Shown here: positions 10,738-39,898 of the stretch, piece after piece | How the letters are laid out: each line of letters begins with the position of its first letter | How positions within the stretch are numbered: the stretch's first letter is position 1 | DNA from: Mycobacterium sp. ITM-2016-00316 | Lineage (GTDB): Bacteria; Actinomycetota; Actinomycetes; Mycobacteriales; Mycobacteriaceae | Length of the DNA: 64,000 nucleotides | Assembly: GCF_002968335.2 (NCBI RefSeq) | Contig: NZ_CP134398.1 | Coordinates: 1,798,001 to 1,862,000 of the forward strand | Direction of reading: 5' to 3' | Translations under genes and position numbers: made by a program | Notes under the pieces: model-generated | The model's input: only the letters and a program-made list of their open reading frames with translations | Databases searched by the model: none | What the model was told of the DNA's origin: nothing

Positions 10738-10802
10738 GCCGGAGTCCCTCACGGACGCCGATAAAGCGTGGTCTTCTCGCAGCCCCGGGTTAGCCTGCGA
10801 GC

Positions 10803-13800
10803 GTGGATGTCGGACTTTACGAAACGTTGCTCACCGAGCGCCTGAATTCGGCACTCGCTCATGACACTGGACTACAGGCTGCGCTCAGCGCAGTAGACGA
10901 CGCCGAACAGGCACTCGTCCTCGCTCGGCACCTCAGCCCACTCATCGAGCGCCAACTGCGAGCAGCCCGAGGTGCGGACGAACGAGCGCAGCTGACCCGA
11001 AAGATTCTTGCCGCACTTGGGGACTCCGACCTACTGTCCGAGAACATCTACCAAGATGACCCGACCAAGATCCGGCGGTTGGATGCTGTGACGGCTGATG
11101 TGGTGGGTTCGGTTCGGCCGCCACGGCCGGCGACGCCACTGTCGGATGCCGCACTGATGACCAACGCGCGCAACGAACCAACCTTGGCTGCCGAGCTGCG
11201 GGCGGAGCTTGCCAGTGCTGACCAAGTCGACTTGCTCTGCGCATTTGTGAAATGGCACGGTCTACGCCTGCTCGAGCGTGAGCTCAACGAACTGCGCGAA
11301 CGCGGGGTTCCATTGCGGGTCATCACCACCACCTATATCGGTGCCACCGACGCCAAGGCGCTGGACCGGCTGGTCGATGAGTTTGGTGCCGAGGTCCGCA
11401 TCAACTACGACACCAACATGACACGGCTGCACGCGAAGGCGTGGCTGGTGCGGCGCAACACGGGGTTCCATACCGCATACGTCGGCTCGTCGAACCTGTC
11501 GCACTCAGCGTTGGTGGACGGCCTCGAATGGAATGTGCGGCTGTCGGCGATCGCCACGCCGCACCTACTGGAGAAGTTCCGTGCCACATTCGACTCCTAC
11601 TGGGAGAACCGTGATTTCGAGCCCTATCAGCCCGCCGCGGACGGTGATCGACTGCGCAACGCCCTCGAGGTCGCGTCAGGCAAGAAAGCGCGCGATCCCT
11701 TCGAGATCACTCTGTCGGGATTGGAAGTCACGGCGAAGCCGTACCAGGCCGAGCTGCTCGAACAGCTGGATGCCGAACGGGTGCTGCACGACCGGCACCG
11801 CAACCTGATCGTCGCGGCGACAGGCACTGGTAAGACAGCGATCGCCGCGCTCGACTACCGCCGTCTCCGCGAAGCGCGCGGCGCAAATCTGAAGCTGCTG
11901 TTTGTGGCGCACCGCAAGGAGATCCTTGAGCAAGCGCGCAGGATGTACCGGGAAGTCCTCACCGACGGCACATTCGGCGAGTTGCTGGTGGCTGGTCAGC
12001 AGCCGGAGAAGTGGCGTCATGTCTTCGCGAGCATTCAGTCGCTGACGACTGAACGGCTTTCGTCTATTGAGCCGAGCCATTTCGATATCGTCGTCGTCGA
12101 CGAGTTTCATCATGCGCAGGCGGCGTCTTACCAACGGTTACTCGACCACATCAACCCCGTCGAACTGCTCGGTCTCACCGCGACCCCGGAACGTAGCGAC
12201 GGAGTCGACGTCCGATCCTTCTTTGACGGACGTACGGCAGCCGAATTGCGGCTATGGGATGCCCTTGAACAAAATCTGCTATGCCCGTTTCACTACTTCG
12301 GCATCCATGACAACACGGACCTTGAAGCATTGCAGTGGAAACGCGGCGGATATGACGTCGCGCAGTTGAACGCGCTCTATACCGGCAACGACGCGCGCAC
12401 GCGGATCGTCCTCGACCAGCTGCGCGACAAGATCACTGACGTCAGCGACATGCGTGCACTCGGATTCTGCGTCAGCGTTGATCACGCTCGCTACATGGCG
12501 GAGAAGTTCGAAGCTGCCGGGATCCCGGCTCGGGCCGTTGTCGGTCTCGACGACACAGCTGACAGGCGCGGCGCACTAGCCGCGCTGCGAGACCGAGACA
12601 TCAACGTGCTCTTCACCGTTGACCTTTTCAACGAAGGTCTCGACATCCCGCTCGTGGACACCGTGCTGTTCCTTCGGCCCACCGAAAGTGCCACTGTATT
12701 CCTCCAACAGCTCGGCCGCGGATTGCGGCTTGCGCCCGGCAAGTCGGTCTTGACGGCCCTGGACTTCGTGGGACATCAACGCCGCGAATTCAGATTTGAC
12801 CAGCGGTTCCAGGCGCTCACTGGCTTGGCGCGCAAGCAGCTTGAACGGCAAGTGGAGGAGGGGTTCCCGTTCCTTCCATCGGGTAGCCAGATCATCCTCG
12901 ATGCGGTGGCGAAGGAGCTCGTCCTTGCCAATGTGAGACAGCAGGTTTCGCCGAAGAAGACCGCTCTGATCGCCGAGATACGTTCCTACCAGCATCACGA
13001 CCTCTCGGGCTATCTCGACGAGTACGAGCGAAGCCTCGACGACATTTTGCGCCCCGGGCGATCGTGGACCACACTTTGTCGCGATGCAGGCAAGCTGAGT
13101 GATCAGCCTGGGCAGCGAGAGTCGGATCTAGTGAAGCGGCTTAAGGCCGTCGCGCACGTGGACGACCGTCGCCGTGCCGACGCCTATCAGGCGTTGCTCG
13201 GCGGCGTCACTCTGGGCGGCTCCGTCACTGAACGCCGCCTGGCTGAGATGCTGTTTTACTCGTTGTTTCCCAATGGCGGTGGATTCGATAACGCCGCAGA
13301 TGGCGTGAGTGCCGTACAGGCTGAACAGGTCGCCGACGAGATGAGGCAGATCGTCGACATCGCCTTCGACGCCGCGCGACGCAGCACCTACGACCTGGGC
13401 GCATTCATCCCGACGCTGTCCGACGTGCCGTTATCGCTCCACGCGACGTACTCGCGTGAGGAGATCTTGGCAGCCCTTGGTTGGACTGCCGAGGGACGTA
13501 GTCCGGCGACGATGCGCGAGGGTGTCGCGTGGTGCCCGGCGGTGAATGCCGACGCCTTCCTAATCACGCTCAAGAAGTCCGATACCGACTATTCGCCGAC
13601 GACGATGTATCGGGACTTCGCGCTGAGTCACGACCTGTTCCACTGGGAGTCCCAGTCGACGACGTCAGCGGCCTCGCCGACCGGGCATCGGTACATCAAC
13701 CACCGCACTACCGGCTCGCACATTCTGCTGTTCGTGCGGGAGACCAAGAAGTCCGTGTTCGGCGACGGTGCACCGTACGTATTCCTGGGCCCGGCGGACT

Positions 13801-13901
13801 ACGTGTCACATGAGGGGGAGCGGCCGATGGCGATCACGTGGCGCTTAAGGCAGTCGATGCCAGCGGAGGTGTACCTGGGGGCGCGGGCCGCGGTTGCGTG
13901 A
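10803..13901 (+). CDS. PLD-nuclease/DEAD helicase/DUF3427 fusion protein
   Basis: A 1,032-residue protein from GTG 10803. Residues about 110-290 form a phospholipase D-like domain with one HxK motif (LHAKAWLV near 209) followed by GSSNLS. An SF2 helicase core follows: Walker A AATGTGKT near 340, DEFH near 433, TATPERSDG, and motif VI QQLGRGLR. The last 150 residues carry the DUF3427 pattern (SHDLFHWESQS, later GSHILLFVRETKKS). Proteins with this exact three-part plan are frequent in bacterial defence loci. It could track or unwind invading DNA and cut it with the PLD-type site. It leads the plus-strand set of the island, 156 bases before the next gene. A similar fold occurs in type III-like restriction enzymes. 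Confidence 0.85.
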   Translation: MDVGLYETLLTERLNSALAHDTGLQAALSAVDDAEQALVLARHLSPLIERQLRAARGADERAQLTRKILAALGDSDLLSENIYQDDPTKIRRLDAVTADVVGSVRPPRPATPLSDAALMTNARNEPTLAAELRAELASADQVDLLCAFVKWHGLRLLERELNELRERGVPLRVITTTYIGATDAKALDRLVDEFGAEVRINYDTNMTRLHAKAWLVRRNTGFHTAYVGSSNLSHSALVDGLEWNVRLSAIATPHLLEKFRATFDSYWENRDFEPYQPAADGDRLRNALEVASGKKARDPFEITLSGLEVTAKPYQAELLEQLDAERVLHDRHRNLIVAATGTGKTAIAALDYRRLREARGANLKLLFVAHRKEILEQARRMYREVLTDGTFGELLVAGQQPEKWRHVFASIQSLTTERLSSIEPSHFDIVVVDEFHHAQAASYQRLLDHINPVELLGLTATPERSDGVDVRSFFDGRTAAELRLWDALEQNLLCPFHYFGIHDNTDLEALQWKRGGYDVAQLNALYTGNDARTRIVLDQLRDKITDVSDMRALGFCVSVDHARYMAEKFEAAGIPARAVVGLDDTADRRGALAALRDRDINVLFTVDLFNEGLDIPLVDTVLFLRPTESATVFLQQLGRGLRLAPGKSVLTALDFVGHQRREFRFDQRFQALTGLARKQLERQVEEGFPFLPSGSQIILDAVAKELVLANVRQQVSPKKTALIAEIRSYQHHDLSGYLDEYERSLDDILRPGRSWTTLCRDAGKLSDQPGQRESDLVKRLKAVAHVDDRRRADAYQALLGGVTLGGSVTERRLAEMLFYSLFPNGGGFDNAADGVSAVQAEQVADEMRQIVDIAFDAARRSTYDLGAFIPTLSDVPLSLHATYSREEILAALGWTAEGRSPATMREGVAWCPAVNADAFLITLKKSDTDYSPTTMYRDFALSHDLFHWESQSTTSAASPTGHRYINHRTTGSHILLFVRETKKSVFGDGAPYVFLGPADYVSHEGERPMAITWRLRQSMPAEVYLGARAAVA

Positions 13902-14057
13902 TGTAGCCGATGTAGCAAACGACACGCCGAAGCACACCCGGCCGCAGCCCGCAATTTCTAGCGACCCCCGTCAATATTTGCTGCCGTAGGCCGGATATCG
14001 GCCGATTGGTCGGTGACTTGTCCTAAAGTGCCTATCAGTTGTTCAAGGGGAGGCGCA

Positions 14058-17000
14058 TTGTCGGACAATCGAACCTTGTCGGAGTGGATCAGCGACGAGG
14101 AGTACCGCTGGCGTGCGCTGTTGCAGCCTGTCAGCCTGGTGATCGAGGCCGACTTCTCCGAGGATGATATCCGCGAGGCGCAGCGCAAATTTGGGGCCAC
14201 GGTCCGTCAGCTTGAGAAGCAAGAGATTCCGTATCGCAAGATTATCAAGCGTTACCCGGCGTTGACCCTGCTGACGTTGGTGGGGCATGCCGCGCTGGCC
14301 TACGACCACGGCGCGTATTGGGAAAGTTACTGGGACGAGCTGGGGATGGCTCGCAACGCCGACTTCGAGAACGACATCCGGCGGAGCATCGTCGACATCC
14401 TCGACAAGTTCTCGCTGGCAAGATTCCCCGACATCGAACGCGACAGCAACCGCAAGTACGTCATGATGCTCGCCCTGCACGCGGGCATACCGATCCACTC
14501 ATTACGTGACCTGCTGGTCGTCATCCATGAGCACATCACACAAGGGCGCCCGGCAACCGGGGCCGCCGTCATGGAATGGCTGCAGGAACCTGGCAAGGAA
14601 TACCGGACGTCCACGTTGGACGTGCCAGTGCGGAACTTCTTGATCAACGGCGCTGAATTCGCCGCCGACATCCTCGACCGAATCATCGAGTTCATCCAGG
14701 AAGCGACAGTCGACCCGACCATCTTCGATCGCGAGTTGAATGCCGGGACCACAGGTTTGCCCACTGTGCTGCTCGAAGAGTTGGTTCAGCAGCTCAAAGA
14801 CGCGCCCCTACACATCCGGAGGCGTCGCATCGGCGCCGGCACGTTGGCGCAACCATCGGTGACCTACTTGGTCGACGACGACGAGATTGTCCTGGAACTG
14901 CCCACGCCTACGGATGGCACCGACTCACCCTGGCGGGTCTCGTTCGACGGCGAAGTGCGGGAAATACTCGCGGGCCGACGCTGGGGCGAGGGAAACCAGA
15001 CTGCCGTCGCGCGCGCTGCGGTGCCGGGCCCAGTTCGTGAAGCTATCGTGTCCCATCCGGACACCCCATCTTCATCCATCGCGTTGGTCGTGCAATCGGA
15101 CCCGCTCCTCATCTTTGATGAGACGGGGCGGTGGATCGCCCGGCGTGACGGTCTGAAGGACTGCGTATGGGCGGTGTTTCCCGAGGACCACCAACTGGTG
15201 GATGCCTACTCAAAGCAACCTGTTGAGTATCGCGACACGGGAAATCCCGCAGGCTGGCACCGTTGGCGAAGCGTGTTCGTCGAACTCGACGACATCGGCG
15301 CTCTGCAGCTGTACCGGGACGGCACGGCGGTGGGTACGCAGCGCCTAGTTCGCAAGGACGCCCGTCCGCGTTTCGTGCTGAGCGAGCCGGCGGTCGGTGT
15401 ACTCACGCCAGAGGGGCGCTCCGTTTATACCCAGCGCCCCTGGGTGATCCTGCCATCGACCCACGCGGATCCGCCTCCAGAATGGAAAGTCCAGGTTCGC
15501 CGAGTGGGCGAGACCGATTTCTTGGTTAACGAGACGTGGCTGGGCGAGGATGAGGAGACCAGCGTCGATCCGTTCGACGACGCCGAGGAAGCCCAGCTCG
15601 GATACTTCGAAATTCTGGTGACCGGTCCGATGGGTTCGGATGCCCGCTGCGTTGTGTACGTGTTTGAGGGCCTCCACGCTGGCTTTGAGCCTGTCATTCG
15701 GGTACCAGCGCTGGGCGGCTTGTCTGTCTGCACCGCAGTGGTCGAGGCTGAAGGATGCGAGGGCCTTCCTCACGAGCCGATCACGTTCGACAGTCGCGTA
15801 ATCGAGCGGAAGCTCGATGTCCGTAACGACGTCATCGCCGATTCGGTCATTCTTCGACCCCCGCACGTCGAGATCCGTAGCGGTGAAGCCGGGGTCCCTA
15901 TCGCGTGGCGAATGACTCCTGATGTCAACGATCCCGAAGACTTCGCCCAAGATCGATTCGTCGCGATTCGCGCGCCGGGGATCGGTCGAGTCGATTTCGG
16001 CTACTTCTCCGATCTTGGCGATCTGATCCAAGCCGACACGAGTCCCCGACGTCGGCAGAACGACGTATTCGAGACGCGGACCCAGCAATTCGCCGATACG
16101 GCGCGCCACCATCCGACGGGCCGCGTGGTGGCCACCTTGCATACCGAAGCCGGTCCAGTCGACGTCACCGTTCTCCTAGCGCGTCCGCGGTTGTTGGCCT
16201 CTGCTGTGCATCTGGTGAACAACGCACTGGAATTCAGCGACGTTGCGTCGGTCGATGACCTCGCCGTGCACGTCTGGAGAATGACCGCTCCTTGGCAGCC
16301 CCCGGAATCATTCCCGGTGGTCGACGGGAGCGCGACGTTGCCCGATCATTTCATTGGACACGGTGAGCTGCGGTGCCAGCTCTTCGTCGACGACCCGTGG
16401 GTGGCCGTGGACCCACCGGCGGCCCCGTCTGCGTCCGCGTTCCAAATCGAGCAGCCGGGCTGGTGTGCCGACGGCACAGCAGAACAGGTGATGCTTGCCC
16501 GGCACGTCGCCACGGGCGAATCCGCTCTCGACGAAGTGAGCGTGCGGCCCGAAGTCTGGACCGCGATGGCCCGGTTGCACGCCGATGGCAAACCTAAGCG
16601 TTTCGCAGGTCTGATCAGAATCTTGACCGCAGATCCTCGACCCGCGTTGGAATGTTTGGGCGACAGCACGATCTCTGCCAACGACAAGATGGCCATGCTG
16701 ATCCGCAGTGAACTCGTCAACCACAACTTCACGGCTGACGACACCTCGAACGAGCTGCATCCACATCCATGGTTCGGGTGCATGGTTGAACTCGCCGACC
16801 TGCCGTCGCTTCATCACCGCCGCCATAAAGTTCCCGCCGAGCGCGCAGAGACGTTGGCCTACTTGCGAGACCGCGGCGGCGAACCACTCACGGAGCTACT
16901 GCGCACGGGTAAGACCGCAAAATTCCACGACACTTGCTTTGATTCTTCGGTACTGGAGTTGAGCTTCGTCCCGGGTAACCGCATCGAATCGAAACTCCAC

Positions 17001-17444
17001 GAGATCCAGCAAGTGCCCCACGCGCAGCTGGACCATGCGAACCTCAGGGCCGGCATCTATGAGGCGTTGTGCGGGCGAACCCAGTGGGGAGCATTCGGAT
17101 GGTCATCAAACTTTGAGCAGCAGTTGTCGATGGTCCTCACGCCGCTCAAACGCGCCTCGCGCCTCGCGCACGAGACCATCACCATGCGCCAGGACGGGGT
17201 GCGCGGCATCGATACCGTCGAGCACCCGTGGATGCTGATGTCCGTCCAGTCACTGACCCTTGCGTTCCTTGCGCGCCTCGAGGCCTACGGTCGCATCGAA
17301 GGCCGCTACCTGAACTCTGGCCTGCTCAGGGACTGGTCGCAGATGGCGAAGTTCTGTCCGACCATGGTGGCGAACGATTTATTGATCGCCGAGGCAGTAG
17401 TGCTCTATGACCGACGCGGCGACCTCATTGGAGAAGATGCATGA
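14058..17444 (+). CDS. Large unrecognised defence-island protein (DruH-like candidate)
   Basis: A 1,128-residue protein. TTG 14058 was chosen because AAGGGGAGG lies four bases before it; the frame opens further upstream without a ribosome site. I see no nuclease, ATPase, methylase or zinc motif. The N-terminal 250 residues are helical (EYRWRALLQPVSLVIEADFS), the middle is beta-rich with a GWHRWRSVFVELDDIGALQL strand set near residue 400, and the C-terminal 300 residues are helical. It overlaps the DUF1998 helicase gene by four bases, so the two are made together. A large domain-less protein coupled to a DUF1998 helicase is the layout of Druantia type III (DruH-DruE). That label is inference from architecture, not a sequence match. 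Confidence 0.6.
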   Translation: MSDNRTLSEWISDEEYRWRALLQPVSLVIEADFSEDDIREAQRKFGATVRQLEKQEIPYRKIIKRYPALTLLTLVGHAALAYDHGAYWESYWDELGMARNADFENDIRRSIVDILDKFSLARFPDIERDSNRKYVMMLALHAGIPIHSLRDLLVVIHEHITQGRPATGAAVMEWLQEPGKEYRTSTLDVPVRNFLINGAEFAADILDRIIEFIQEATVDPTIFDRELNAGTTGLPTVLLEELVQQLKDAPLHIRRRRIGAGTLAQPSVTYLVDDDEIVLELPTPTDGTDSPWRVSFDGEVREILAGRRWGEGNQTAVARAAVPGPVREAIVSHPDTPSSSIALVVQSDPLLIFDETGRWIARRDGLKDCVWAVFPEDHQLVDAYSKQPVEYRDTGNPAGWHRWRSVFVELDDIGALQLYRDGTAVGTQRLVRKDARPRFVLSEPAVGVLTPEGRSVYTQRPWVILPSTHADPPPEWKVQVRRVGETDFLVNETWLGEDEETSVDPFDDAEEAQLGYFEILVTGPMGSDARCVVYVFEGLHAGFEPVIRVPALGGLSVCTAVVEAEGCEGLPHEPITFDSRVIERKLDVRNDVIADSVILRPPHVEIRSGEAGVPIAWRMTPDVNDPEDFAQDRFVAIRAPGIGRVDFGYFSDLGDLIQADTSPRRRQNDVFETRTQQFADTARHHPTGRVVATLHTEAGPVDVTVLLARPRLLASAVHLVNNALEFSDVASVDDLAVHVWRMTAPWQPPESFPVVDGSATLPDHFIGHGELRCQLFVDDPWVAVDPPAAPSASAFQIEQPGWCADGTAEQVMLARHVATGESALDEVSVRPEVWTAMARLHADGKPKRFAGLIRILTADPRPALECLGDSTISANDKMAMLIRSELVNHNFTADDTSNELHPHPWFGCMVELADLPSLHHRRHKVPAERAETLAYLRDRGGEPLTELLRTGKTAKFHDTCFDSSVLELSFVPGNRIESKLHEIQQVPHAQLDHANLRAGIYEALCGRTQWGAFGWSSNFEQQLSMVLTPLKRASRLAHETITMRQDGVRGIDTVEHPWMLMSVQSLTLAFLARLEAYGRIEGRYLNSGLLRDWSQMAKFCPTMVANDLLIAEAVVLYDRRGDLIGEDA

Positions 17445-20400
17445 TCGACCGGCTTGACCCGCTGGAAACCGCGAAGCAGATCGAAGGAAGTTACAAGCGC
17501 TACCTCAAGACACTCCTCGCTCCACGGGATGAACGCCTCGCTACGGCGTTCGACGCCGAGATTGATGCCAGCACCTTGTTGACCAAGGGGCCGATTCTTG
17601 AGATGACACCGCCCTACGAGACCGGCGCAACGTGCCGCGAGCTGATCGCCGAAGGTGTGCTCGATCAAGACTTCGATCGGATCGGTTCGTCGTTTCCGTT
17701 GGACCAGAGTCTGTACGTGCATCAAGAGACGGCAATCCGCAAGTTTGTCGCTGGACGAAACCTTGTGGTGAGCACGGGAACTGGCTCAGGCAAGACAGAG
17801 AGCTTCCTTATCCCGATCATCAATTCACTGATCGAAGAATCCCGCAACAGCACTCTCGGTCCAGGAGTCCGCGCGCTGCTGCTGTACCCGATGAATGCAT
17901 TGGCCAACGATCAGCTGAAGCGATTGCGGGCTGTGCTTGCCTCGTTACCTGACGTCACCTTCGGCCGCTATACGGGGGAGACCCAGCAGCGGGCCGACGA
18001 CGCCGAAGCCGAGTTCCGGCAGGGCAATCCAGGAGTACGACGGCTGCCGAATGAGCTGCTGAGCCGCGATGAAATGCAGGCGACACCACCACATTTCCTG
18101 CTCACGAACTACGCGATGCTGGAATACCTGTTGCTTCGCCCGGCCGACATGGTGCTGTTCGACGGACCAAACTCAGGCACGTGGCGGTTCATCGTCATGG
18201 ACGAGGCACACGTGTACGACGGCGCACAAGGCTCCGAGGTCGCGCTGCTGATCCGCCGCCTCAAGCAACGTGTCGCATCCGGTGCAAACCTGCAGTGCAT
18301 CGCGACATCTGCGTCATTGAACGGATCTGTCCGCAATGATCCGCACGGCGAGGCAATGGAGTTCGCCCAGAATCTCTTCGACGCCAACTTCGAGTACATC
18401 GACGGCGATCTCGCCCGACAAGACTTGGTTGAACCGGTACGCAAGAAACACACCCCCACTCCGACATGGTCGCTCACGGGCGAGCAGCTCCTCGGGTTGC
18501 GTAGTGGCTCGGTCCAATCCGCCGATGTGCTTCCATCAACGGCTGCCGCCGAAAAGTTGGCCAGTGAGCGGTCGATGGTCGAGCTCAAAGACGCACTGAG
18601 CACGGGCCCGGTCGACGTGTACGCCCTCCGTGACCGATTGTGGCCCGGAGACGAGCAGTCCGCAGAAAAGCTCGATGCCCTGGTTGAGCTGGGCAGTGCG
18701 ACGCAAGACGACGCAGGCCACCCCGTACTCTCCGCGCGCTACCATCTCTTTGTCCGCGCCACAGAAGGTGCATTCGTCAGTTTCAACGAGCCCGGCCCGC
18801 GTGTATTTCTCGCCCGCCACGAGATCGATCCCGACACTGGCCGAGCAGTTTTCGAATTTGGAACATGCCAGCGCTGCGGAGCCGTCCATCTCGCCGGCGA
18901 TCTTGACCTTCGCAAGGGCCAGGATTACTTCGTCCCCGCGAAGGCCGCCGATAGGTCGGTCAACTGGTTAGTCCTCGCCGATGAACAGGGCGACATAGTC
19001 CGTGACGAGGACGAGCTCACCCTTGCCGACAACGACGCGAAGTCCGGCACCTCCGACCCCACCACCCGCCGACTGTGCACCGGATGCGGCCTGCTGACCG
19101 ACGCGGCCGCGACCGGCTGCACCGGACCGCAGTGCAATGGCGCACAGCTCCTCCTTGTTCGCGAGCATCCCCGCGCCACCCGCGTGATGAGCCGCTGCAC
19201 CGAATGTGGCACACAATCACGCCAGGGTGTTCGCCGACTCCGCACTGATGTGAATGCCGCACCCGCGGTCGTCACCACAGCCTTGTATCAGCAGCTGCCT
19301 GAAGCGGCCGATGAGTCGGCAGACCAGGTCGGTGGAGGGCGCAAGCTACTGATGTTTTCCGACTCGCGTCAGTCAGCGGCCTTCGCTGCACCCTACTTGG
19401 ACCGTACCTACACACGAATGTTGGAGCGGCGCTACATCACCCAAGCGCTGCGTGATCCGGCCGCGGCAGATGGTTCTCTCACAGTCAACGACCTCGCCGT
19501 GCTCACACGGGAAAAGGCAGACGCGGCCGGGCATTTTCCGCGCGCGATGGGACGCATCGAGATAAGCAGGGAAGTCAATCAATGGGTGTCGGGCGAATTG
19601 ATGACGTTGGAGACCCGCCAATCGCTTGAAGGTCTCGCGCTGATGCGCGTCGAACTCAGGCCACAGGCTTCGATTCCGCTGCGCGGATTCACGGCGCTAG
19701 GACTGACGGACACCGAGTCCTGGGCGTTGCTCAATGAGCTCGTAAAGACCGTCCGACTCCAAGGTGCTGTGACGGTGCTGGATCACGTCGACGTGAAGAA
19801 CGAGCGATTCGCTCCACGGAACACACGGGTCCGAATGCGCTCGACCGGTTCGGATCGCGCCAAACAGATCATCAGCTGGAGTCCCAGTGGCACCGGGACC
19901 ACTAACAGCCGAGTCACGTTCCTACGCAAGGTCCTTGCCGACCTGTCCAATGACACTCCAGCGGAACGGATTCTCGAAGGCTGCTGGAAGCTGCTCGAGT
20001 CCAGCGGGCTCCTGGCGTCCGAGGCCGAGCGCGGATCAGGTGGCTACGTCTACCAACTCGACGCCAACATGCTTTCCGTGTCCGACGCAGCGGACAGCGA
20101 GTGGTACCAATGCGAAACCTGCCGACTACTGACCGCGTTCTCGGTCCGCGACATCTGTCCCAACAGTCGATGCACCGGGAAGCTCAAACCCTTCGAGCGT
20201 CCAGATCCCGCCGGCGACCCGAATCACTACCGGGCGGTTTACCAAACCATGAACACCGCGCCGCTGAGCGCACGCGAGCACACCGCTCAGTGGAGCGCCA
20301 AAGAAGCGGCCGAGATCCAGCGACAGTTCATCAGCGGCGCAGTCAATGTCCTGTCGTGCTCCACGACCTTCGAGCTCGGCGTCGACGTCGGCGATCTGCA

Positions 20401-22072
20401 ATCGGTGTTCATGCGCAATATGCCACCCAAGACGGCCAACTATGTTCAGCGGGCCGGGCGCGCGGGCCGTCGAGCGGCGTCGGCCGCGTTGGTTGTCACC
20501 TACGCAAACAGATCAGCCCACGACCTTGCGCAGTACCAGAATCCGACGTCGATGATCGCCGGCCAGATGCGCATCCCGTGGGTGCCAGTGGACAATGCTC
20601 GCATCGGGCGCCGCCACGCACACTCGATTGCCCTCGCTGCGTACTTCCGTGACCGCTACGACGCTGGAGAAGCGTGGTGGAAGACAGCCGGGAGATTCTT
20701 CTCGCCGGAAGACGGCGGCCGTCCGTCACCCGCGGACGGCTTGCAGGATTTCCTGACACCGGTGCCTGCCGCTGTCCAGCAGGCACTGACCGAGGCGCTG
20801 CCCGTCGGTGTGCAATCGGAGATCGGAGTGCACGACGGCAGCTGGGTTGCTCCGCTGGTCGAGCTGGTCGAATCGGTGCAGAAAGAGCTGATCCAGGATG
20901 TCGCCGATATCGAAGAGCGGCTCGAAGAGTCGATCAAGGCTCGAAAGTTTAGTGTCAGCAAGCAGCTTGAGGAGACCAAGAAGACGATCTTGAGCCGAGC
21001 GCTGCTCGGTCATTTGGGCAGCCGAAACATCCTTCCTAAGTATGGGTTTCCCGTCGATACCGTTGAGTTCAACACCCTGAACTCTGCAGACCCGGTAGGG
21101 CGCAAGTTGGCACTGGACCGTGACCTGTCGCAGGCGATCTACGACTACGCACCCGGCAATCAGGTGGTTGCCGGCGGGAAGCTATGGACATCTGCTGGGC
21201 TGCGAAGGCGACCTGGCAAAGAACTGGTTCGACACAAATACAGAGTGTGCAACGCCTGCGGTCGCTTCGAACGTGGCACTGAGCTCGACCAGTCCGTTCC
21301 GTGCCCGAGTTGCATGGAGCCGTTCAAGTCGATCAGGACGATGATCATCCCGGAGTTTGGCTTTGTCGCCGCAACCGATACGAAGGATGTGGGCAGCGCA
21401 CCGCCGGTGCGGCATTGGCACGGCGGAAGCTACGTCGAGACGCACGGTGACGAGACCGGGCTTCACCACTGGGCCGGCCCTAACGGCATGAAGGTGACTG
21501 CGCGCGCGGGCGTCAGGGCGTGGCTGGCCGTCGTGTCCGATGGGTCTGGCGAGGGCTTCCAGATGTGCCAATGGTGCGGCTGGGCGGCATCGGTGGAGCG
21601 GGGCAGCAGGCGGCGCAAGCACAACCGGCCCGAGAATGGGCGCGAGTGCGATGGTCCGCTGGAAACGATCTCGCTGGGTCATCGCTATCAGTCGGATATC
21701 GCGGAGTTCACCTTCGATGGTGTGCCCTATATGAAAGATCAAGATTCGAACTGGCTTTCAGCGTTGTACGCGATCCTTGAAGGAGCGTCGTATGCGCTTG
21801 AGATCACGCGGGACGATATCGACGGGGCGCTGTCGTGGAGTGCCGACCACAAGCGAAGCCTCGTTCTCTTCGACACTGTGCCGGGCGGTGCGGGGTCTGC
21901 GAAACGAATTGCAGAGAACATCGAGGTGGTCTTAGAGTCTGCCGTCAAACGGGTGACGAGTTGCGAGTGCGGCGAGGAGACATCGTGCTACGGGTGCCTG
22001 CGGTCGTACCGCAACGCGCGGTTCCATGAGGAGCTGTCGCGGGGCGCGGCTCTGAACCTGCTGGGGGTGTGA
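17441..22072 (+). CDS. Zinc-rich DUF1998 DEAD/DEAH helicase (DruE-like)
   Basis: A 1,543-residue SF2 helicase whose ATG overlaps the preceding stop (ATGA). Walker A is STGTGSGKTE near residue 114 and the motif II box is DEAH near 252. The second RecA lobe has FELGVDVGDLQS and YVQRAGRAGRR near 980-1010. Several cysteine sets are inserted or appended: CQRCG, CTGCG with GPQCNG, CTECG, CETC, CNACG with CPSC, and CQWCGW. The C-terminus (VLFDTVPGGAGSAKRIAEN, then CECGEETSCYGCLRSYRN) is the DUF1998 zinc module found in DruE, DrmB and MrfA-type proteins. Size and organisation fit DruE of Druantia better than the shorter YprA/MrfA. It probably translocates on DNA as the motor of a defence complex with the upstream protein. 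Confidence 0.8.
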   Translation: MIDRLDPLETAKQIEGSYKRYLKTLLAPRDERLATAFDAEIDASTLLTKGPILEMTPPYETGATCRELIAEGVLDQDFDRIGSSFPLDQSLYVHQETAIRKFVAGRNLVVSTGTGSGKTESFLIPIINSLIEESRNSTLGPGVRALLLYPMNALANDQLKRLRAVLASLPDVTFGRYTGETQQRADDAEAEFRQGNPGVRRLPNELLSRDEMQATPPHFLLTNYAMLEYLLLRPADMVLFDGPNSGTWRFIVMDEAHVYDGAQGSEVALLIRRLKQRVASGANLQCIATSASLNGSVRNDPHGEAMEFAQNLFDANFEYIDGDLARQDLVEPVRKKHTPTPTWSLTGEQLLGLRSGSVQSADVLPSTAAAEKLASERSMVELKDALSTGPVDVYALRDRLWPGDEQSAEKLDALVELGSATQDDAGHPVLSARYHLFVRATEGAFVSFNEPGPRVFLARHEIDPDTGRAVFEFGTCQRCGAVHLAGDLDLRKGQDYFVPAKAADRSVNWLVLADEQGDIVRDEDELTLADNDAKSGTSDPTTRRLCTGCGLLTDAAATGCTGPQCNGAQLLLVREHPRATRVMSRCTECGTQSRQGVRRLRTDVNAAPAVVTTALYQQLPEAADESADQVGGGRKLLMFSDSRQSAAFAAPYLDRTYTRMLERRYITQALRDPAAADGSLTVNDLAVLTREKADAAGHFPRAMGRIEISREVNQWVSGELMTLETRQSLEGLALMRVELRPQASIPLRGFTALGLTDTESWALLNELVKTVRLQGAVTVLDHVDVKNERFAPRNTRVRMRSTGSDRAKQIISWSPSGTGTTNSRVTFLRKVLADLSNDTPAERILEGCWKLLESSGLLASEAERGSGGYVYQLDANMLSVSDAADSEWYQCETCRLLTAFSVRDICPNSRCTGKLKPFERPDPAGDPNHYRAVYQTMNTAPLSAREHTAQWSAKEAAEIQRQFISGAVNVLSCSTTFELGVDVGDLQSVFMRNMPPKTANYVQRAGRAGRRAASAALVVTYANRSAHDLAQYQNPTSMIAGQMRIPWVPVDNARIGRRHAHSIALAAYFRDRYDAGEAWWKTAGRFFSPEDGGRPSPADGLQDFLTPVPAAVQQALTEALPVGVQSEIGVHDGSWVAPLVELVESVQKELIQDVADIEERLEESIKARKFSVSKQLEETKKTILSRALLGHLGSRNILPKYGFPVDTVEFNTLNSADPVGRKLALDRDLSQAIYDYAPGNQVVAGGKLWTSAGLRRRPGKELVRHKYRVCNACGRFERGTELDQSVPCPSCMEPFKSIRTMIIPEFGFVAATDTKDVGSAPPVRHWHGGSYVETHGDETGLHHWAGPNGMKVTARAGVRAWLAVVSDGSGEGFQMCQWCGWAASVERGSRRRKHNRPENGRECDGPLETISLGHRYQSDIAEFTFDGVPYMKDQDSNWLSALYAILEGASYALEITRDDIDGALSWSADHKRSLVLFDTVPGGAGSAKRIAENIEVVLESAVKRVTSCECGEETSCYGCLRSYRNARFHEELSRGAALNLLGV

Positions 22073-22298
22073 CCGGGATCAGGCAGTGCCGGCACAGTAG
22101 ACCTCCGCGAGATGGGGAGGGGCCGGGTGTCGGGGTGGATTGGCGATTACGGGTAGTGATGCATTGGAACGGAGAGGACGCTTGCCGTGATGTCGGCTGA
22201 CGGGGTTCTGGTTGCCAGTAATCCGGCGGTCTCATCGGTAGTGTCTCCGGGGTGAAGCGGTTGTGGACATTTATGCCCAGATCGTGCGACGAGGCGCA

Positions 22299-25200
22299 AT
22301 GAAGCCCGACTCTCCGCTCTGGAAGGTCATGGGCGACCCGGCCACTCCCGCCGAGGCCGCCGCGCTGGATGCCTTCCGCGAGCTCCTCCCGGATGACGGC
22401 ATCACCACTGCCTGGGCGAACCTGACCTTCATTAACGATCAGGGGCGCACCGCAGAGGTCGACGTACTCCTGCTGACCACCCAGGGGATGTACCTGGTCG
22501 AACTCAAGGGCTGGCACGGCACGATCCGCGGCAACGCCCAGCGCTGGAACCAGGCGCAGCGGAACGTCGAGAACCCACGACTCCTTGCTGACCGCAAGGC
22601 CAAGTGGCTGAAGGGTCTCCTTCAAGATCGAGCACCCAACCAAGCAGCGAGAGGGCTGGTACCGCGCATCCACGCCGTCGTCGTCATGCACGGGGAAGGC
22701 AGCACCGTCGAGATTGCGGCTCCCGGTGACATCGGAGTGCTGACCCTCGACGGGTACCACGTCACCTCGAAGCCGCGCCTCCTGAAGCTCTCCGACTTCC
22801 TCAAACAGCCCCCGCACGACTTCCGCCAATCGATCGACGTCCAGCGAGCACGGCAAGTCCGCACTCTGTGCGACGCCGTCGGATTCGCCCCGACGCCGAA
22901 GGTCCGCATGGTCGGCGACTTTGTGGTCGCCGACGACGAGCCCATCGCCCAAGGCAGGGACTGGCAGGACGTACTCGTCAACCTTCCCGCGTTGCCGAAC
23001 ATCAAGCGTCGGCTGCGCCTGTACGACGTCCCCGCAACCGCCTCACCTGCAGACCGCCAGCACATCGAGCAGCTTGCGCAGCGCGAGTTCCAGCTCACCC
23101 AGGGGCTGCGCCACGGCGGCATCGCGGTCCCCATCGACTTCAAGCGAACCGACGACGGCCCGGCGCTGGTGTTCGAGCACGACTCTCAAGAGCTCCCGCT
23201 CGATGCCTACATCGCCGGGGAGGGTGCCGAGCTCGACCTCGACCAGCGACTCTCGCTGGTACTCAGGCTGGGCGAGATCCTGCGGTTCGCCCACAACGTC
23301 CACCTTCGCCACCGGGCGCTGTCGCCGCGCCGTGTATGGGCAACCCCCGTCAAGGACGCGCTGCCCAACCTCACAATCCGTGATTGGTACTTCGCCCAGC
23401 GCGACAGCTCGACTCGCAACGTCTCCCGCCTGACCGCGATCAGTGCGGGAGTTGATGACCTCATGGGCGTTGCAGACCAGGACGACTGGCTGTGGCTCGC
23501 ACCCGAGGCCCGCCACTCCGTCGAAGGACTCCCACCGATACCACTTGACGTTTACGGATTTGGCGTCCTGGCCTACCTCATCCTCACCGGGAAGCCGCCC
23601 GCTGAGACCTTTGTCGAGCTGGAGCAACGGCTGTCTGAGGCGGGCGCCCTCGACCCGCGCGCAACGTCGCCAGGCATGCCCGACGACGTGGCCGAAGTCG
23701 TCGCCATGGCAACCCGTGCCGTCGAGTCGGAGCGATTGTCGACGATTGAAGAGGCGCTCGAACTCCTCCGACTGACCAGCGATGAGCTTCGTCGTAGGGA
23801 CCACGCCGAGGACCCAACGCCGGTGGAAGATCCCGTCGACGCGCAGACCGACGATATTGTCGCCGACCGCTTCATCGTCACTAGTCGTCGTGGTGAAGGT
23901 TCTAGCGGCGTCGCACTCGGGGTCCATGACACCGACTCTGACGACCCAAGCCGCGAGCTCGTCCTCAAAGTCGCTCGGACGGAGTCCGCCGCGCGCAGGC
24001 TCTCGCCGGAAGCCGACGTGCTGAGAGCGCTCGACCACCGCCGGGTGGTGCGCCTTATGGCAGGGCCGCTCGACGTCGGGCACAGACGAGCGCTTCTTCT
24101 CAGCGACGCTGGCAAGGAAACGCTTGCTACGCGCCTCTCCAAAGAGGGGCGGGCGACAGTGGGTCAGCTTGAGCAGTATGGAAGCCAGCTGCTGGAAGCA
24201 ATGATCTACGTGGAGTCGCAAGGTGTCTTTCACCGAGACATCAAGCCGGCCAACCTCGGTATCACGCCAGATCCCGGGACGCGGAAGCCGTCGCTGATTC
24301 TCTTCGATTTCTCGCTCGCGAGTGAGAGCGTGGACAACACGTCATCGGGAACGCCGAGTTATCTCGACCCCTATCTCGGCCGTGGTCGCCGACAAAAGTT
24401 TGACCGTGCCGCCGAGTTGTGGGCGGTCTCGACCACGCTCTTCGAGATGGCGACGGGACAGCTTCCGTGGTGGGGTGAGGGTGCCGGCCGTCCTGCCGAC
24501 CCGAGTGACCCGCCGATCATCGAGCCCACAAGCTTCGAGCCAGCCGTGGCGACTCAACTCACGGCCTTCTTCCAACGCGCCCTCCATCCGGACGCAGGAG
24601 CCAGGTTCAGCAGCGCCGACGAGCTGGCGGTGGCATGGCAGGGAGTGTTTGCCTCTCTCGACACAGACGACGACAGCGCAGCCGGAAGCGACGACCTCGC
24701 GGACGCGGCGACACTCGATACTCCGTTGGAGCGTGCGGGCCTTTCAGCGCGGGCGCTGTCCGCTGTCTCACGTCTTGAGGTGGCGACCGTTGGTCAGCTG
24801 CTGGGCGTCCACCCGACCCGGATCAACTCGATTCGCGGCCTCGGTGAGACCTACCGCAAGGAGATCCAAGCAAGGATCCGCGGCTGGCGAGCAAGACTCA
24901 GCGGTGGAGGAGAGGTCTCCGCCGATCAGCCCATGGGCACCGAGCGACTCGTATCCCTCCTGCTGGACCAGCTCAAAGGGACTGAGCGGACGGTGATCGA
25001 ACGTCTTCTGGGCCTGTCAGGCGACGCGGCACCAGGCGAATGGCCGTCCACAGGAGACACAGCTCAATCGCTTCGGATTACTCGCGACCAAGTCGCGAAC
25101 GCCGTAGACCGAGCGGTCACAACCTGGGGCAAGAACGCCTCGGCGATCGACAGCGTGCGCGCAGAAGCAGCCACGCTCCTTGCCCGCAACGGCCGGGTGA

Positions 25201-26470
25201 TGGCCGTGACGTCCCTCGCGAACGCATTGGTCGCCCAGCGCGGATCACTGCTCGACGGGGAGGACCGGACTCGCCATGGATCGGCCCTCCTGCGTTTGAG
25301 CTATGAGCTCGATGCGCGCATGCCCGAGCCAGCATTGGAACTCAGGCGAGTCATCGGAAAACGTGCCAATGTCATCGCCCTGCGTGAAACTGCGGACCCT
25401 GACGACTTAAGGCAAGAATTTCCACCAGCCGACATCCTGACCGAGACGGCTATCGAGTTAGGGCGTCGCGCCGATGAACTCGTTGCGACCGGGATCGTGC
25501 CGTTCGCAACCGCACACGCAGACCTCACTGACGTCGTGAACGAGGCCGGGGCGTCTCCGCTCATCGGCCTGACTGGGCGGCAACTCTTGACACTCGCCGC
25601 AGCAGTTTCGACGAAGGCGGTCGTGTCGGGATTCGACGAGCTGTACCCGCTAGACCTCGACCCACAGCAGGCAGTGGAGCGTGCGCTACGTGGCAAGCCT
25701 GGCCGGCGGATCAGTGAGTCCAATGTTCGTCGCACTGTGGCTGCACGTTTCCCACAGGTCGAGCTTCCCGCCGCGTCGCACCGACTCGACGCTCTCGTCT
25801 CCGCGGTCCTGCCCGGGGTGGTGAACCGCAACGGCGTCTACGAGCTGGCGTCCGAGGTGCGTTCCAGCACACATACAGCCTCAAGCCTCACTGTCTTCGC
25901 GCCGGTCGCTGTCGCCGAGGCGGCGGCAAAGCTCAAGGAGTCGCTCTCGCGAAACGGCGCCCTTACGTTGACCACACCGCCCAAGCGATACGTAAAGGCG
26001 GCACACGAACTACCGAAGCGGTACGGCGTCGAAGTTCTTGATGTCGCGTCACTGGTCGTGACCGCGACACGCGCACTCGCCAGGGAGCACGGGGCAAGTT
26101 GGGAGTTCGTCCTCGGCGTCGACGCTGAAAAGCGGGGCGGCGCGGAGTGGTCGAATCTCGTGGGCTTTGTCCAGCAAGCTGTGACACCAGTGTGGGAGGA
26201 AAGACTCGCAAGCGACATCCCGTTGCTCATTGTCCACGCGGGCCCCCTTGTCCGATACGGGATGGCAGGGCTTCTCTCAACCCTTCTCGACGTCGGCACG
26301 CCGCGACCCGCTGCCCGGTGGCTGCTGGTCGCCAAGCAGGGCAACCAGGCTGTCCCGCTGATGGAAGGCAAGCCCGTGCCACTCGGACCGAGCGGCTGGA
26401 TAGAGCTGCCCGCCGACCTCTCGCTTCTCACCGAGCCCTCAATTACTAGCAGTACTCCGGGAGTTCAATC

Positions 26471-26474
<4 letters not shown>
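22299..26474 (+). CDS. pglW: BREX-2 serine/threonine kinase PglW
   Basis: About 1,391 residues. ATG 22299 follows GAGG at good spacing; GTG 22263 in the same frame is an alternative. The N-terminus is a NERD nuclease-related domain (EVDVLLLTTQGMYLVELKG, residues 50-70). Two kinase-like domains follow. The first (about 230-490) has LRHRALSPRRV where HRD is expected, so it is probably inactive. The second (about 530-790) has the catalytic Lys in VLKVA near 557, HRDIKPANL at 645 and DFSLA at 670. A helix-hairpin-like segment (VHPTRINSIRGLGETYRKEI) and a long C-terminal domain complete it. PglW of Streptomyces phosphorylates itself and is required for BREX type 2 (Pgl) phage resistance. It is the first gene of the BREX operon. 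Confidence 0.93.
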
Positions 26475-36484
<10,010 letters not shown>

Positions 36485-36488
<4 letters not shown>

Positions 36489-37825
36489 CCGAGGTGCCGG
36501 GCAGCATCAGCCCCCGCCGCCGCAAGGACATCATCGACGCACTGCGACGCGGCACCGTGCCCCAACAGGGCCTCGACGTGCTTGCCGTCGGCTTGGCTCG
36601 CTTTGAGGACACCGTTGACGAAGAGTTGCAGACCGTCTCCGGTGGAGGCGCCGTATTCAAGGCCGTCCGTGGCGAGTACGGCTCTGGTAAGACCTTTTTC
36701 TCCCGATGGCTCACCGAGCGAGCCAAGCGAGCAGGGTTCGCAACCACCGAAGTGCAGATCAGCGAGACAGAAACACCTCTGCACAAACTGGAGACGGTGT
36801 ACCGGCGCATCACTGAGAACCTCTCCACCCCGACCACCCAGTCGGGTGCCCTCCGAGACGTGGTTGACGGCTGGTTCTACATTCTCGACCACGACGCCAA
36901 GGATGGAGCCACCTCAATACCAACAGGCTCAGAAGGAACGCTCGACCTCCTTCAACGTCGACTGTCCGATGTTTCGAAGGAGGCGCCGGCCTTTGCGGCT
37001 GTGCTGCGGCAGTACCGGCTGGCGCAGACGGCGGGGGACTCTGCGGAGGCCGATGGACTGTTAGCGTGGCTCGGTGGTCAGCCTCACGTAGCGGCGTCGG
37101 TGAAGCGTTCCGCTGGAGTTCGTGGCGACCTCGACCACTTCGGCGCACTCGGCTTCCTGCAGGGGCTGCTCACCGTCCTTCGCGATTCGGACTACGCAGG
37201 ACTCGTCGTCGTCTTCGATGAAGTTGAGACGTTGCAACGCATGAGAAGCGATGTCCGAGAGAAGTCGCTGAATGCTCTTCGTCAGCTCATGGATGAAATC
37301 GACGGAGGTCGATTCCCGGGCCTGTATCTCCTTCTCACCGGCACCCCCGCGTTCTTCGACGGGCAGCAAGGCGTGCAGCGTCTTCCGCCGCTGGCCCAAC
37401 GCCTTCAGACTGACTTCACTACGGACGCGCGCTTCGATAACCCGCGCGCCACGCAGATCCGCCTCACCGGATTCACGCCCGAGTCGCTGTTGGAGCTAGG
37501 CAGCCGCGTTCGTGACATCTACGCGACCGGAGCCAAAGATCCTGAGCGCGTTAGGAACGTCGTCGACGACGGTTACCTGCGAGACCTCGCAGCCGCCGTT
37601 GGAGGTGAGTTGGGCGGGCGAACCGGAATTGCGCCACGACTCTTCTTGAAGAAACTGGTCTCCGACGTCCTCGACCGCGTGGACCTCTTCGAGGACTTCA
37701 ACCCTCGCCGCGATTACCACCTCACGGTCAGCGCCGACGAGATGACGCCAACGGAGCGAGAAGCGCATGCCCGGAGCAACCGCGTTCCGGCGGAGAGCGT
37801 CGACGAAATCGAGTTGGACATCTAG
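36485..37825 (+). CDS. brxD: BREX-2 ATP-binding protein BrxD
   Basis: A 446-residue ATPase whose ATG overlaps the pglZ stop (ATGA). The Walker A motif is GEYGSGKTFF (Gly at about residue 63) and the Walker B is LVVVFDEVETLQRM near 240. The C-terminal third carries a winged-helix-like and arginine-finger region (GRTGIAPRLFLKKLVSDVLD). BrxD is a conserved BREX type 2 ATPase related to the DUF2791 P-loop group and may act as an adapter to the helicase encoded next, three bases downstream. Length and motif order match the family. Confidence 0.92.
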
Positions 37826-37828
37826 CCG

Positions 37829-39898
37829 ATGTCGGCTCCCACTGGCCTCGACGCCGCCATCGAATACCACATCGTCAACTCACTGGGGTGGCCCGCACTC
37901 AGACCGCTGCAGGCCGCCTCGGTCCAGCCGGTGAGGTCAGGTTCCGATTGTGTCCTCGTCGCACCCACAGCAGGGGGCAAGACCGAAGCCGCCGTATTCC
38001 CGCTCCTTTCCGAGATGGTCGAAGGCAACTGGTCAGGCGCGACCATCCTCTATGTCACTCCACTTCGTGCTCTCCTGAACAACCTCCACGCTCGCGTGAG
38101 CACCTATTGCTCCTGGCTCGGCCGCACGGCGGGGTTGTGGCACGGCGACGTGGGGCAATCTGAGCGTCGCAGGATGCTCGCTGATCGACCGGACATTCTT
38201 CTCACGACCCCGGAATCCATTGAGGCCATGCTCGTGTCACGACGAGTCGATCACGAGCGGTTCCTGGGGTCAGTCCGAGCCGTCGTGGTCGACGAGCTTC
38301 ACGCGTTCGCTGGATCCGACCGGGGCTGGCACCTACTCGCCGTGCTGGAACGAGTCGAACGGATCGCCGGCCGCAAGATCCAGCGCGTGGGTCTTTCGGC
38401 AACCGTAGGTAATCCGGAAACGGTTGGCACGTGGATGCAAGGCTCGACCGAGGGGCGGACACCGGTCGTGGTGGTGCGAGAGGACTCGTCGCCGGCACTG
38501 AGCCCGGAAATCACCGTCGACTACGTCGGGAGCATGGACAACGCTGCCACGGTCATATCCCGGCTCCATCGAGGCGAGAAGCGACTGGTGTTCGCCGAAT
38601 CACGCCGTTCCGCTGAGGAACTCGCCTTCCTCCTGCGCGAGCGCGGCGTTCAGACCTTCGTGTCCCACTCATCGCTCTCCGCCGACGAGAGGCGACAAAG
38701 CGAACGGGCGTTCGCCGAGGCCAAGGACACAGTGATTGTTGCGACATCGACGCTTGAGCTCGGTATCGACATTGGCGACCTCGATCGCGTCATCCAGATC
38801 GACGCGCCGCACACCGTCTCCTCGTTCCTGCAACGACTGGGCCGCACTGGCCGGCGACCGGGCACGAGCCGCAACACTCTGTTCCTCGCCACCAGCCTCG
38901 ACGGACTACTTGACGCTGCCGCCGTGCTGCTCCTGTGGAAACGCGGCTTCGTCGAAGATGTCGTTGCTCCACCACACCCGAGACACCTTGCTGCCCAACA
39001 ACTTCTGGCGTTGGCCCTTCAAGAAGGATCGTTCGGCACATCGGACTGGCCGCGGTGGTGGGGGGACCTTCCGCTCATGGCGGATGGCGCGGAGGTCCTC
39101 GCTTATCTGCGCGCACAAGAGTTCCTCGTTGAAGACTCAGGGTTACTGATGATCGGCCCGCGCGCGGAGAAGGAGTTCGGCAAGCGACACTTCATGGATC
39201 TACTTTCGACGTTCATTGCCGATCTTGAGCTGCGGGTCGTGGCCGGCGTCAAGGAGATCGGATTCGTCTCCCCACTGGCCCTCCCGGCCCGGCCGGACCG
39301 CGAACAACGACCCCTCGTTCTCGGAGGCCGCGGCTGGTTCGTGCAATACGTCGACTGGGAGCGCTTCACCGTATGGGTTGAGGAGGTTCCAACCAAGGGC
39401 GATGTGAAGTGGCCGTCAGGTGCAGTCGCGCAATCGTTCGAGGTATGCCAGGCGAAGAGGAAGGTGCTGCTTGGGGCGGAGCCTGACGTCGAGTTGTCCA
39501 AACGTGTTGCAGGAGCGCTGACGCGCCTTCGTGAAGAGCGCGCCACGGAGGTCGAGAACAACGGCCTTGTGATGCATCCGCGCGGTGTGGGAGGTACGCG
39601 ACTGTGGACCTGGGCCGGCCTGAAGGCGAACGCCACACTTCTCGCAGGGCTGGGTATTGAGGCGAGTGGTGTGGAGAACGAGAGCGTCGTTCTTCCAGAA
39701 GGCATCAGGGGAACTGATGTGAAGGCTGCGGACCCGGACGCCGTTCCGCGCGTCGATGACGAAGCGATCTCGGGGCTCAAGTTCTCCGTAGCGCTGCCGC
39801 CGAATCTGGCTGTCAGGACTCTTGGTGAGCGGCTGGCTGATCCGCGTGGCGCTGGGGAGACTGCCAAAGCGCGCATTGTCCGGTATCGCGCAGGGTGA
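37829..39898 (+). CDS. brxHI: BREX-2 helicase BrxHI
   Basis: A 689-residue SF2 helicase of the Lhr type. Walker A is APTAGGKTEA near residue 47, motif II is VDELHAF near 155, motif III is LSATVGN, and the second lobe has STLELGIDIGDLDRVI and FLQRLGRTGRRPG. The C-terminal 250 residues are the winged-helix and beta domains typical of Lhr-like enzymes. BrxHI ends the standard BREX type 2 gene set. The gene starts three bases after brxD. It should translocate on DNA using ATP, probably as the effector motor of the system. Confidence 0.92.
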   Translation: MSAPTGLDAAIEYHIVNSLGWPALRPLQAASVQPVRSGSDCVLVAPTAGGKTEAAVFPLLSEMVEGNWSGATILYVTPLRALLNNLHARVSTYCSWLGRTAGLWHGDVGQSERRRMLADRPDILLTTPESIEAMLVSRRVDHERFLGSVRAVVVDELHAFAGSDRGWHLLAVLERVERIAGRKIQRVGLSATVGNPETVGTWMQGSTEGRTPVVVVREDSSPALSPEITVDYVGSMDNAATVISRLHRGEKRLVFAESRRSAEELAFLLRERGVQTFVSHSSLSADERRQSERAFAEAKDTVIVATSTLELGIDIGDLDRVIQIDAPHTVSSFLQRLGRTGRRPGTSRNTLFLATSLDGLLDAAAVLLLWKRGFVEDVVAPPHPRHLAAQQLLALALQEGSFGTSDWPRWWGDLPLMADGAEVLAYLRAQEFLVEDSGLLMIGPRAEKEFGKRHFMDLLSTFIADLELRVVAGVKEIGFVSPLALPARPDREQRPLVLGGRGWFVQYVDWERFTVWVEEVPTKGDVKWPSGAVAQSFEVCQAKRKVLLGAEPDVELSKRVAGALTRLREERATEVENNGLVMHPRGVGGTRLWTWAGLKANATLLAGLGIEASGVENESVVLPEGIRGTDVKAADPDAVPRVDDEAISGLKFSVALPPNLAVRTLGERLADPRGAGETAKARIVRYRAG

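Follow-up and report, generated by a model that had tools for sequence, protein, structure and literature searches.

A putative DruH-DruE pair of an actinobacterial Druantia type III-like branch next to a SauUSI-like restriction enzyme gene in a mycobacterial defence island

An antiphage DruH-DruE system of mycobacteria has already been published, and the gene pair analysed herein is a further member of this kind, for which antiphage activity is predicted. The published example, Druantia III of Mycolicibacterium smegmatis (MSMEG_1253/1254), is likewise a two-gene system with overlapping genes. According to the available text of PMC13316683, it protects against several mycobacteriophages, for which both genes as well as an interaction of DruH with DruE are required; it blocks the circularisation and the replication of phage DNA and can be triggered by a minor tail protein. 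For the canonical Druantia III of Escherichia coli, the available text of PMC13192584 describes that DruE unwinds DNA with 3' single-stranded tails and that DNA is nicked by dimers of DruH, whose Ig-like domains are proposed as sensors of phage protein. In their available parts, these two sources disagree on a stable binding of DruH and DruE. The available part of PMC12458937 describes a distinct Druantia III-like branch that is most often nuclease-less, as well as DISARM (DrmA, DrmB, DrmC), which uses a YprA-like helicase together with a PLD nuclease and a protein containing DUF1998.

The window, a stretch of 64,000 nucleotides from Mycobacterium sp. ITM-2016-00316, contains three consecutive genes, A, B and C (Table 1), which compare with these systems as follows. 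Protein B has 1128 residues and M. smegmatis DruH 1132; protein C has 1543 residues and M. smegmatis DruE 1667, and both of the latter contain DEAD, Helicase_C and DUF1998 domains without a canonical nuclease domain, as far as the available text of PMC13316683 describes the M. smegmatis protein. The E. coli system has the same gene order and overlapping genes. Its DruH (PDB 9tud, 1119 aa) resembles B in size and in its predicted helical - beta - helical layout, but the two cannot be aligned by BLAST or PADLOC models. E. coli DruE, which we take to be PDB 9tu7 because of its 2108 residues, has the helicase and zinc core in common with C, but carries approximately 390 C-terminal residues that are absent from C and in which the available text of PMC13192584 places two PLD domains; the structure entries of that paper itself bear codes other than 9tud and 9tu7. 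In comparison to DISARM, the DUF1998 domain of the window is fused to its helicase (gene C), and the PLD domain is fused to a different helicase (gene A). We consider it very probable that the window contains two independent defence units that adjoin in a large defence island, and that the PLD-helicase is not a third component of Druantia.

The link between the pair and MSMEG_1253/1254 is made by family and published description, not by sequence. When the published DruH residue numbers were compared, the homologue of M. smegmatis MKD8 fitted at fewer than 4 of 11 positions (offsets within 12) and the protein of locus L157 at 6 of 11, but several other proteins, including canonical ones, reach 5 of 11 by chance offsets. 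With the published DruE residue numbers, the protein of locus L031 fitted at 5 of 9 positions at zero offset, but 5 were also reached by an E. coli DruE. MSMEG_1253/1254 may fall into a more divergent subgroup, e.g. that of L031/L157, the residue fit not being decisive. When 98 genomes were searched with the DruH of L031, no match was obtained at 1e-100.

Arrangement of the locus and its defence island

The source genome has 5.99 Mb in a single contig. An earlier note on this DNA, which was made from the letters alone, had described three genes before a BREX system, and all three open reading frames were indeed recovered where it had placed them, all on the plus strand, followed by a complete BREX type 2 gene set. 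Because 195 homologues of B exist and A, C and the BREX genes match their families over long stretches, none of them is a chance reading frame. Gene A ends 156 bp before gene B, and 190 bp separate the pair from BREX, all on the same strand. B and C overlap by 4 bp (ATGA, 17441-17444), which agrees with the translational coupling proposed before. A GTG start at 14013 would give B 1143 residues (14013-17444), 15 more than the TTG start at 14058; as this TTG lies four bases 3' of AAGGGGAGG, a good ribosome-binding site, the 1,128-aa form is likelier. A promoter and terminator scan gave nothing above chance.

Table 1. Positions of the described features within the window, with their assignments
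Feature	Position	Strand	Size or content	Assignment
Gene A	10803..13901	+	1032 aa	SauUSI-like type IV restriction enzyme (most likely)
A/B boundary	13902..13966		blastn conserved-block ends	suggested boundary between two units
Gene B	14058..17444	+	1128 aa, TTG start	probable DruH, actinobacterial Druantia III-like branch
Gene C	17441..22072	+	1543 aa	predicted DruE, YprA-family SF2 helicase with MZB/DUF1998
BREX type 2	22263..39898	+	PglW, PglX, PglY, PglZ, BrxD, BrxHI	neighbour, not part of the pair
HNH-domain gene	61311..62381	-		tail-to-tail with gene A homologues in some relatives

The defence island spans positions 10803-62381 and comprises, besides the type IV restriction enzyme, the Druantia III-like pair and BREX type 2, further genes: a Mrr_cat_2-helicase protein (40334-43150), an AAA_5 gene and a McrBC-component gene (43415-46832), a DUF4268 gene together with RNase H-AAA helicase and PD-(D/E)XK genes (48357-51893), and an SMC-like gene (53827-56241). 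Most of its 2-kb blocks have a G+C content of 58-64%, as compared to about 66-67% near the window ends.

The putative DruH-DruE pair

Gene C encodes DEAD, Helicase_C and MZB (PF09369) domains according to Pfam, as well as eight CxxC motifs, and thus has the domain composition that characterises the DruE helicase of Druantia III and III-like systems; MZB is called DUF1998 in the available text of PMC13316683. The earlier description of a zinc-rich DUF1998 helicase of 1,543 residues is therefore correct. Among the PADLOC models, DruE1 (629.7 bits) scores above DruE3 (560.3 bits), and the best DrmA model reaches 52.8 bits. In a DruE tree of 39 proteins, calculated by a quick search with SH-aLRT support only and with one MrfA-type row on a long branch, C falls into an actinobacterial DruE clade of 24 proteins (SH-aLRT 100), which is apart from the DruA-associated DruE proteins, from the three canonical type III rows and from the MrfA-type protein, a far outgroup. 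How the Druantia branches are joined at depth is poorly supported in this tree, and several long branches meet. Within the limits of the one MrfA-type row, C groups with DruE and not with MrfA, a housekeeping grouping that had been named as what would overturn the Druantia reading. On the basis of the PADLOC scores and the tree, an assignment of C as DISARM or ARMADA helicase was rejected.

Protein C ends 23 residues past its MZB match; no C-terminal nuclease was found, and the two C-terminal PLD domains of canonical Druantia III DruE are lacking. Of the 23 other actinobacterial DruE proteins, six extend 101-117 residues beyond the end of C, one extends 41, and sixteen extend at most 17 residues. 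The DruE proteins of the E. coli and Sinorhizobium type III systems continue for 390 and 371 residues, respectively, and an Azotobacter DruE that adjoins a canonical DruH for just 8. That C ends past its zinc domain fits the available description of the III-like branch in PMC12458937, which is most often without nuclease. The long extension gave no Pfam match in the five actinobacterial DruE proteins tested. Those of loci L008, L012 and L029 have a similar-looking extension of about 101-112 residues past the end of the window protein, and, judged by eye, one might guess that this is a degenerate Vsr-type nuclease.

For protein B, no match was found in Pfam, PADLOC, NCBIfam or PDB sequences, just as the earlier note had seen no recognised domain in this large protein. 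Among the 120 of its 195 homologues that were listed, all those with an organism name are mycobacterial. BLAST, phmmer and the PADLOC models detected no relation of B to canonical DruH, with a single chance row at E 0.26. PADLOC DruH3, by which a canonical Druantia III DruH is recognised, does not match B, and the pair was consequently filed as III-like rather than canonical III. However, the PADLOC DruH models also miss ten other actinobacterial DruH proteins tested, and the failure with B is thus at least partly a limit of model coverage. As the DruH of this branch escapes the models used, actinobacterial Druantia III-like systems may be under-counted wherever DruH is required for detection.

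A relation to canonical DruH emerged when profiles were compared. In forward hhalign comparisons of actinobacterial B-family alignments with canonical DruH, 27 diverse sequences against 31 canonical ones scored 62.6 (E 1.1e-5, 811 columns), the same 27 against 38 scored 64.7 (E 6.3e-6, 817 columns), and a re-alignment of 29 against 38 sequences scored 59.0 (E 2.8e-5). As controls for the pair that scored 62.6, 60 column shuffles reached at most 31.5, 40 block shuffles 29.4 and a reversal 19.8; two unrelated large families gave at most 24.3. With query and template swapped, however, the scores were 33.5, 33.1 and 30.8, which hardly differs from the best shuffle; with alignments restricted to close homologues, 25.9-28.2 was obtained. 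Comparing E. coli DruH as a single sequence with a profile made from 23 mycobacterial ones was unsuccessful. Of the alignments, A2 had 98 rows (96 of 124 listed proteins, the window protein and one Rhodococcus protein), and A5 consisted of 38 of 45 listed proteins.

The predicted structures point in the same direction. In the AlphaFold2 models of B (pLDDT 86.3) and of a canonical Hafnia DruH (81.9), roughly 250 residues are helical, and both models also contain an extended beta-rich region as well as a helical end of about 315 and 280 residues, respectively. In the register of the forward hhalign alignment, the predicted secondary structures of B and canonical DruH agree at 65.6% of 942 aligned positions, as compared to at most 51.7% in 24 shifted registers. 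When the model of B was searched against the PDB with Foldseek and VIA, mostly Ig-type and macroglobulin/complement chains were among the best 50 rows. DruH was absent from these 50 rows, but it was equally absent for the canonical DruH control model, and as the structure set therefore probably does not contain DruH, this absence carries no meaning. Homology of B and canonical DruH is thus favoured by the forward profile E-values, the lower controls and the in-register secondary structure, tempered by the drop of the swapped scores, and is not settled; B is probably a remote DruH relative. If confirmed by superposition, the profile and structure evidence would tie actinobacterial and enterobacterial DruH together.

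A large gene in the position of druH, directly upstream of the DruE gene and coupled to it, is a further characteristic of Druantia III and III-like systems, and this arrangement is found in the window; C also adjoins B in 30 of 31 other B loci. Genes B and C therefore look like the DruH-DruE pair of an actinobacterial Druantia type III-like branch, a two-gene system, and the type III plan that had been recognised from the letters alone was borne out.

Could the actinobacterial systems represent a Druantia type of their own, rather than belonging to type III? Such a type would be defined by its separate DruE clade, which excludes the three canonical type III rows, by a DruH that the PADLOC models do not see, and by a DruE that has no nuclease and extends no more than 117 residues beyond the end of C in the 23 other proteins, as compared to 390 residues in E. 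coli and 371 in Sinorhizobium. However, the two genes and their order are the same as in type III, DruH probably shares a remote ancestry with its canonical counterpart, and the 8 residues of the Azotobacter protein next to a canonical DruH show the same shortness. In their available parts, moreover, PMC13316683 calls the mycobacterial pair type III and PMC12458937 calls the distinct branch III-like. We regard a type of its own as rather unlikely, and the distinction is largely a matter of naming.

Possible mode of action

For the III-like pair, a mechanism can be inferred from the published relatives, in which DruE would act as helicase only. DruH, whose Ig-like beta core is flanked by helical ends, would sense a signal of infection, e.g. 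a phage tail or baseplate protein, and DruE would engage phage replication intermediates that contain single-stranded DNA. Together, both would block phage DNA circularisation and replication, resulting in a late or abortive protection. As DruE ends past its zinc domain, any cutting must come from DruH or from a host nuclease. The more specific idea of a Druantia type with a nuclease-free helicase, in which DruE only unwinds and holds the phage DNA while DruH, as an Ig-like sensor that is invisible to the models, carries out any cutting, is a tentative one that we consider less likely to hold than to fail.

Gene A and other neighbours of the pair

Gene A encodes PLDc_2, ResIII/Helicase_C and DUF3427 domains (Pfam), in agreement with the earlier reading as a fusion of a PLD nuclease, an SF2 helicase and DUF3427. 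It scores 1075.7 bits with the PADLOC mREase_IV model PDLC03659 across residues 108-1027 of 1032, and this almost full-length match to a one-gene enzyme family was counted in favour of a separate system. Its nearest solved structure is PDB 7clg (293 bits), an entry titled "Putative helicase" that we take to be SauUSI by its size and by the domain description in the available text of PMC7913695. According to the latter, SauUSI likewise has a PLD nuclease, an SF2 ATPase and a C-terminal domain in one chain, and the HxK and GSSN motifs are common to both enzymes; gene A thus has the single-chain PLD nuclease and SF2 ATPase with HxK that is expected of a SauUSI-like type IV enzyme. In gene A, the motifs are HxK at 210 (dyad 210, 212), GSSN at 228, GTGKT at 341 and DEFH at 433. 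The enzymes differ in that SauUSI has HxK(x)4E, while gene A has HxK(x)4R with arginine replacing glutamate, and in about 87 extra residues ahead of the aligned part in gene A; the C-terminal DUF3427 part is weakly alignable to residues 803-919 of 7clg (21 bits). Most likely, gene A encodes a type IV (modification-dependent) restriction enzyme of the SauUSI kind that works alone, is independent of the pair and neighbours it by chance. Its PLD nuclease would be driven by the SF2 motor, and, judging from the family, it should cut DNA with modified cytosine. In some relatives, the homologue is shortened (L081) or divided into two frames (L082 and L083), and the enzyme thus seems to decay locally.

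It is tempting to see a missing part in a nuclease-helicase that adjoins a Druantia without nuclease, and the earlier note had considered that, together with the PLD-helicase, the system may be an extended or new variant. In such a three-gene Druantia, the PLD-helicase would supply the nuclease that is absent from DruE, which would suit the common strand, the short distance of 156 bp and the lack of the C-terminal extension of E. coli DruE in C. The surveys give no sign of it. In 198 genomes of the same genus, including that of the window, full-length B was found in 10 and C in the same 10; of the 12 genomes with any B match, G004 and G152 have DruH fragments of 56 and 30 residues, respectively, and were not counted as carriers. 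Gene A was detected in 33 of the 198 genomes (E <=1e-60), including seven with partial matches of 39-40% identity, most in frames of 1300-1375 residues, which are probably another PLD-helicase. A and the pair coincide in one genome, that of the window, as compared to 1.7 expected (Fisher p 0.85), and the overlap is still one without the seven partial matches; hence the pair is absent in 32 of the 33 genomes with A, and A was found at this threshold in none of the nine other genomes with the pair.

In a wider draw, the B family occurred in 23 of 396 genomes, with A being checked only in the neighbourhood of the 13 further carriers, as the genome-wide A search covered the draw of 198. At order level, DruE was found in 10 of 298 genomes, each with a DruH-family gene directly upstream. 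A scan of named genome contigs with two narrow peptide patterns yielded 12 loci. The 31 other B loci are those of the genus draws, the order-level loci and one named Rhodococcus locus, with duplicates per genome counted once and two short contigs left out (L002, 6.3 kb with DruH and the start of DruE; L011, 3.7 kb with a partial DruH). C adjoins B in 30 of these loci, and the contig of the 31st ends 31 bases past the B match. Gene A was found in none of the 31, and the upstream sequence is 6.1 kb or longer in 29 of them. Conversely, neither B nor C was found in the available flanks of gene A in 20 loci of other genomes (out of 32 other gene-A genomes; two of the loci are short contigs). Conserved DNA, as aligned by blastn, breaks between the genes: with M. 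aurum (L007), it covers window positions 13967 to 22041 and stops short of A, whereas with the gene-A carriers L074 and L075 it reaches from 10785 and 10766 to 13901 and 13899, respectively, and stops before B. Judged by one pair locus and two gene-A loci, this suggests two units. In the limited set of literature searched, no report tied Druantia to DUF3427 or SauUSI. The earlier note had named a PLD-helicase gene that is not conserved beside the pair as a result that would overturn its reading, and this is what was observed. A conserved three-gene module is refuted by the survey, and, with A also matching a one-gene enzyme family, a three-gene variant is highly improbable.

The two-unit reading leaves the relation of the pair to the downstream BREX genes to be considered. 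That both form one functional unit could be suspected from their common strand and the distance of 190 bp, but in the 31 other pair loci (with varying flanks, two short upstream and one downstream) no PglW, PglX, PglY, PglZ or BrxD was found, and there was a single BrxHI homologue (53%), in L027; such a unit is very hard to reconcile with these data. Even less credible is that C is a housekeeping repair helicase of the MrfA/SftH type with an unrelated neighbour: it has the DEAD, Helicase_C and MZB domains in common with these, and SftH can substitute for DruE in assays according to the available text of PMC13316683, but the DruE models give 560-630 bits as compared to 132.4 bits for the DECH helicase model TIGR03817 (NCBIfam), C lies in the DruE clade, B precedes C homologues in 30 of 31 other loci, and an MZB helicase of 782 residues, which we take to be the MrfA/SftH of this genome, is encoded separately.

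With the pair and gene A regarded as separate units, the HNH gene at the other end of the island may tell something about its origin. A related HNH gene lies within 1 kb of the 3' end of A, tail-to-tail, in 5 of 20 gene-A loci, 10.4 kb off in a sixth and on the other side of A in a seventh; in the available flanks of the remaining 13, including the four closest relatives, none was found, which was counted against this line of argument. In the window, the HNH gene is 47.4 kb away from A with defence genes in between, and the comparison with the distance of at most 1 kb in some relatives suggests that cargo was inserted between A and HNH; this was counted in favour of two separate units. On one reading, the two genes would thus mark a site that was entered by Druantia, BREX and other cargo. 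In L029, a gene related to the HNH gene of the window is found near the pair as well.

Remnants of the pair were observed in two genomes. In L032 (G004, about 9673-10036), only the first 56 residues of DruH remain and are directly joined to some 190 bp from the 3' end of DruE, which looks like the result of a single deletion within the pair. In L033 (G152), a PglW stretch with 90% identity to that of the window is near a DruH fragment of 30 residues and a different PLD-helicase (35% identical), with the order being as in the window.

Other companions occur elsewhere. In L008 (1375-9912) and L112 (1-5315), DruH-DruE is accompanied by a second MZB protein with the gene of a UvrD-type helicase behind it, and in L108 (2802-5168) by the UvrD-type helicase. 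These neighbours resemble ARMADA type II, which, according to the available text of PMC12458937, co-locates with Druantia III in E. coli.
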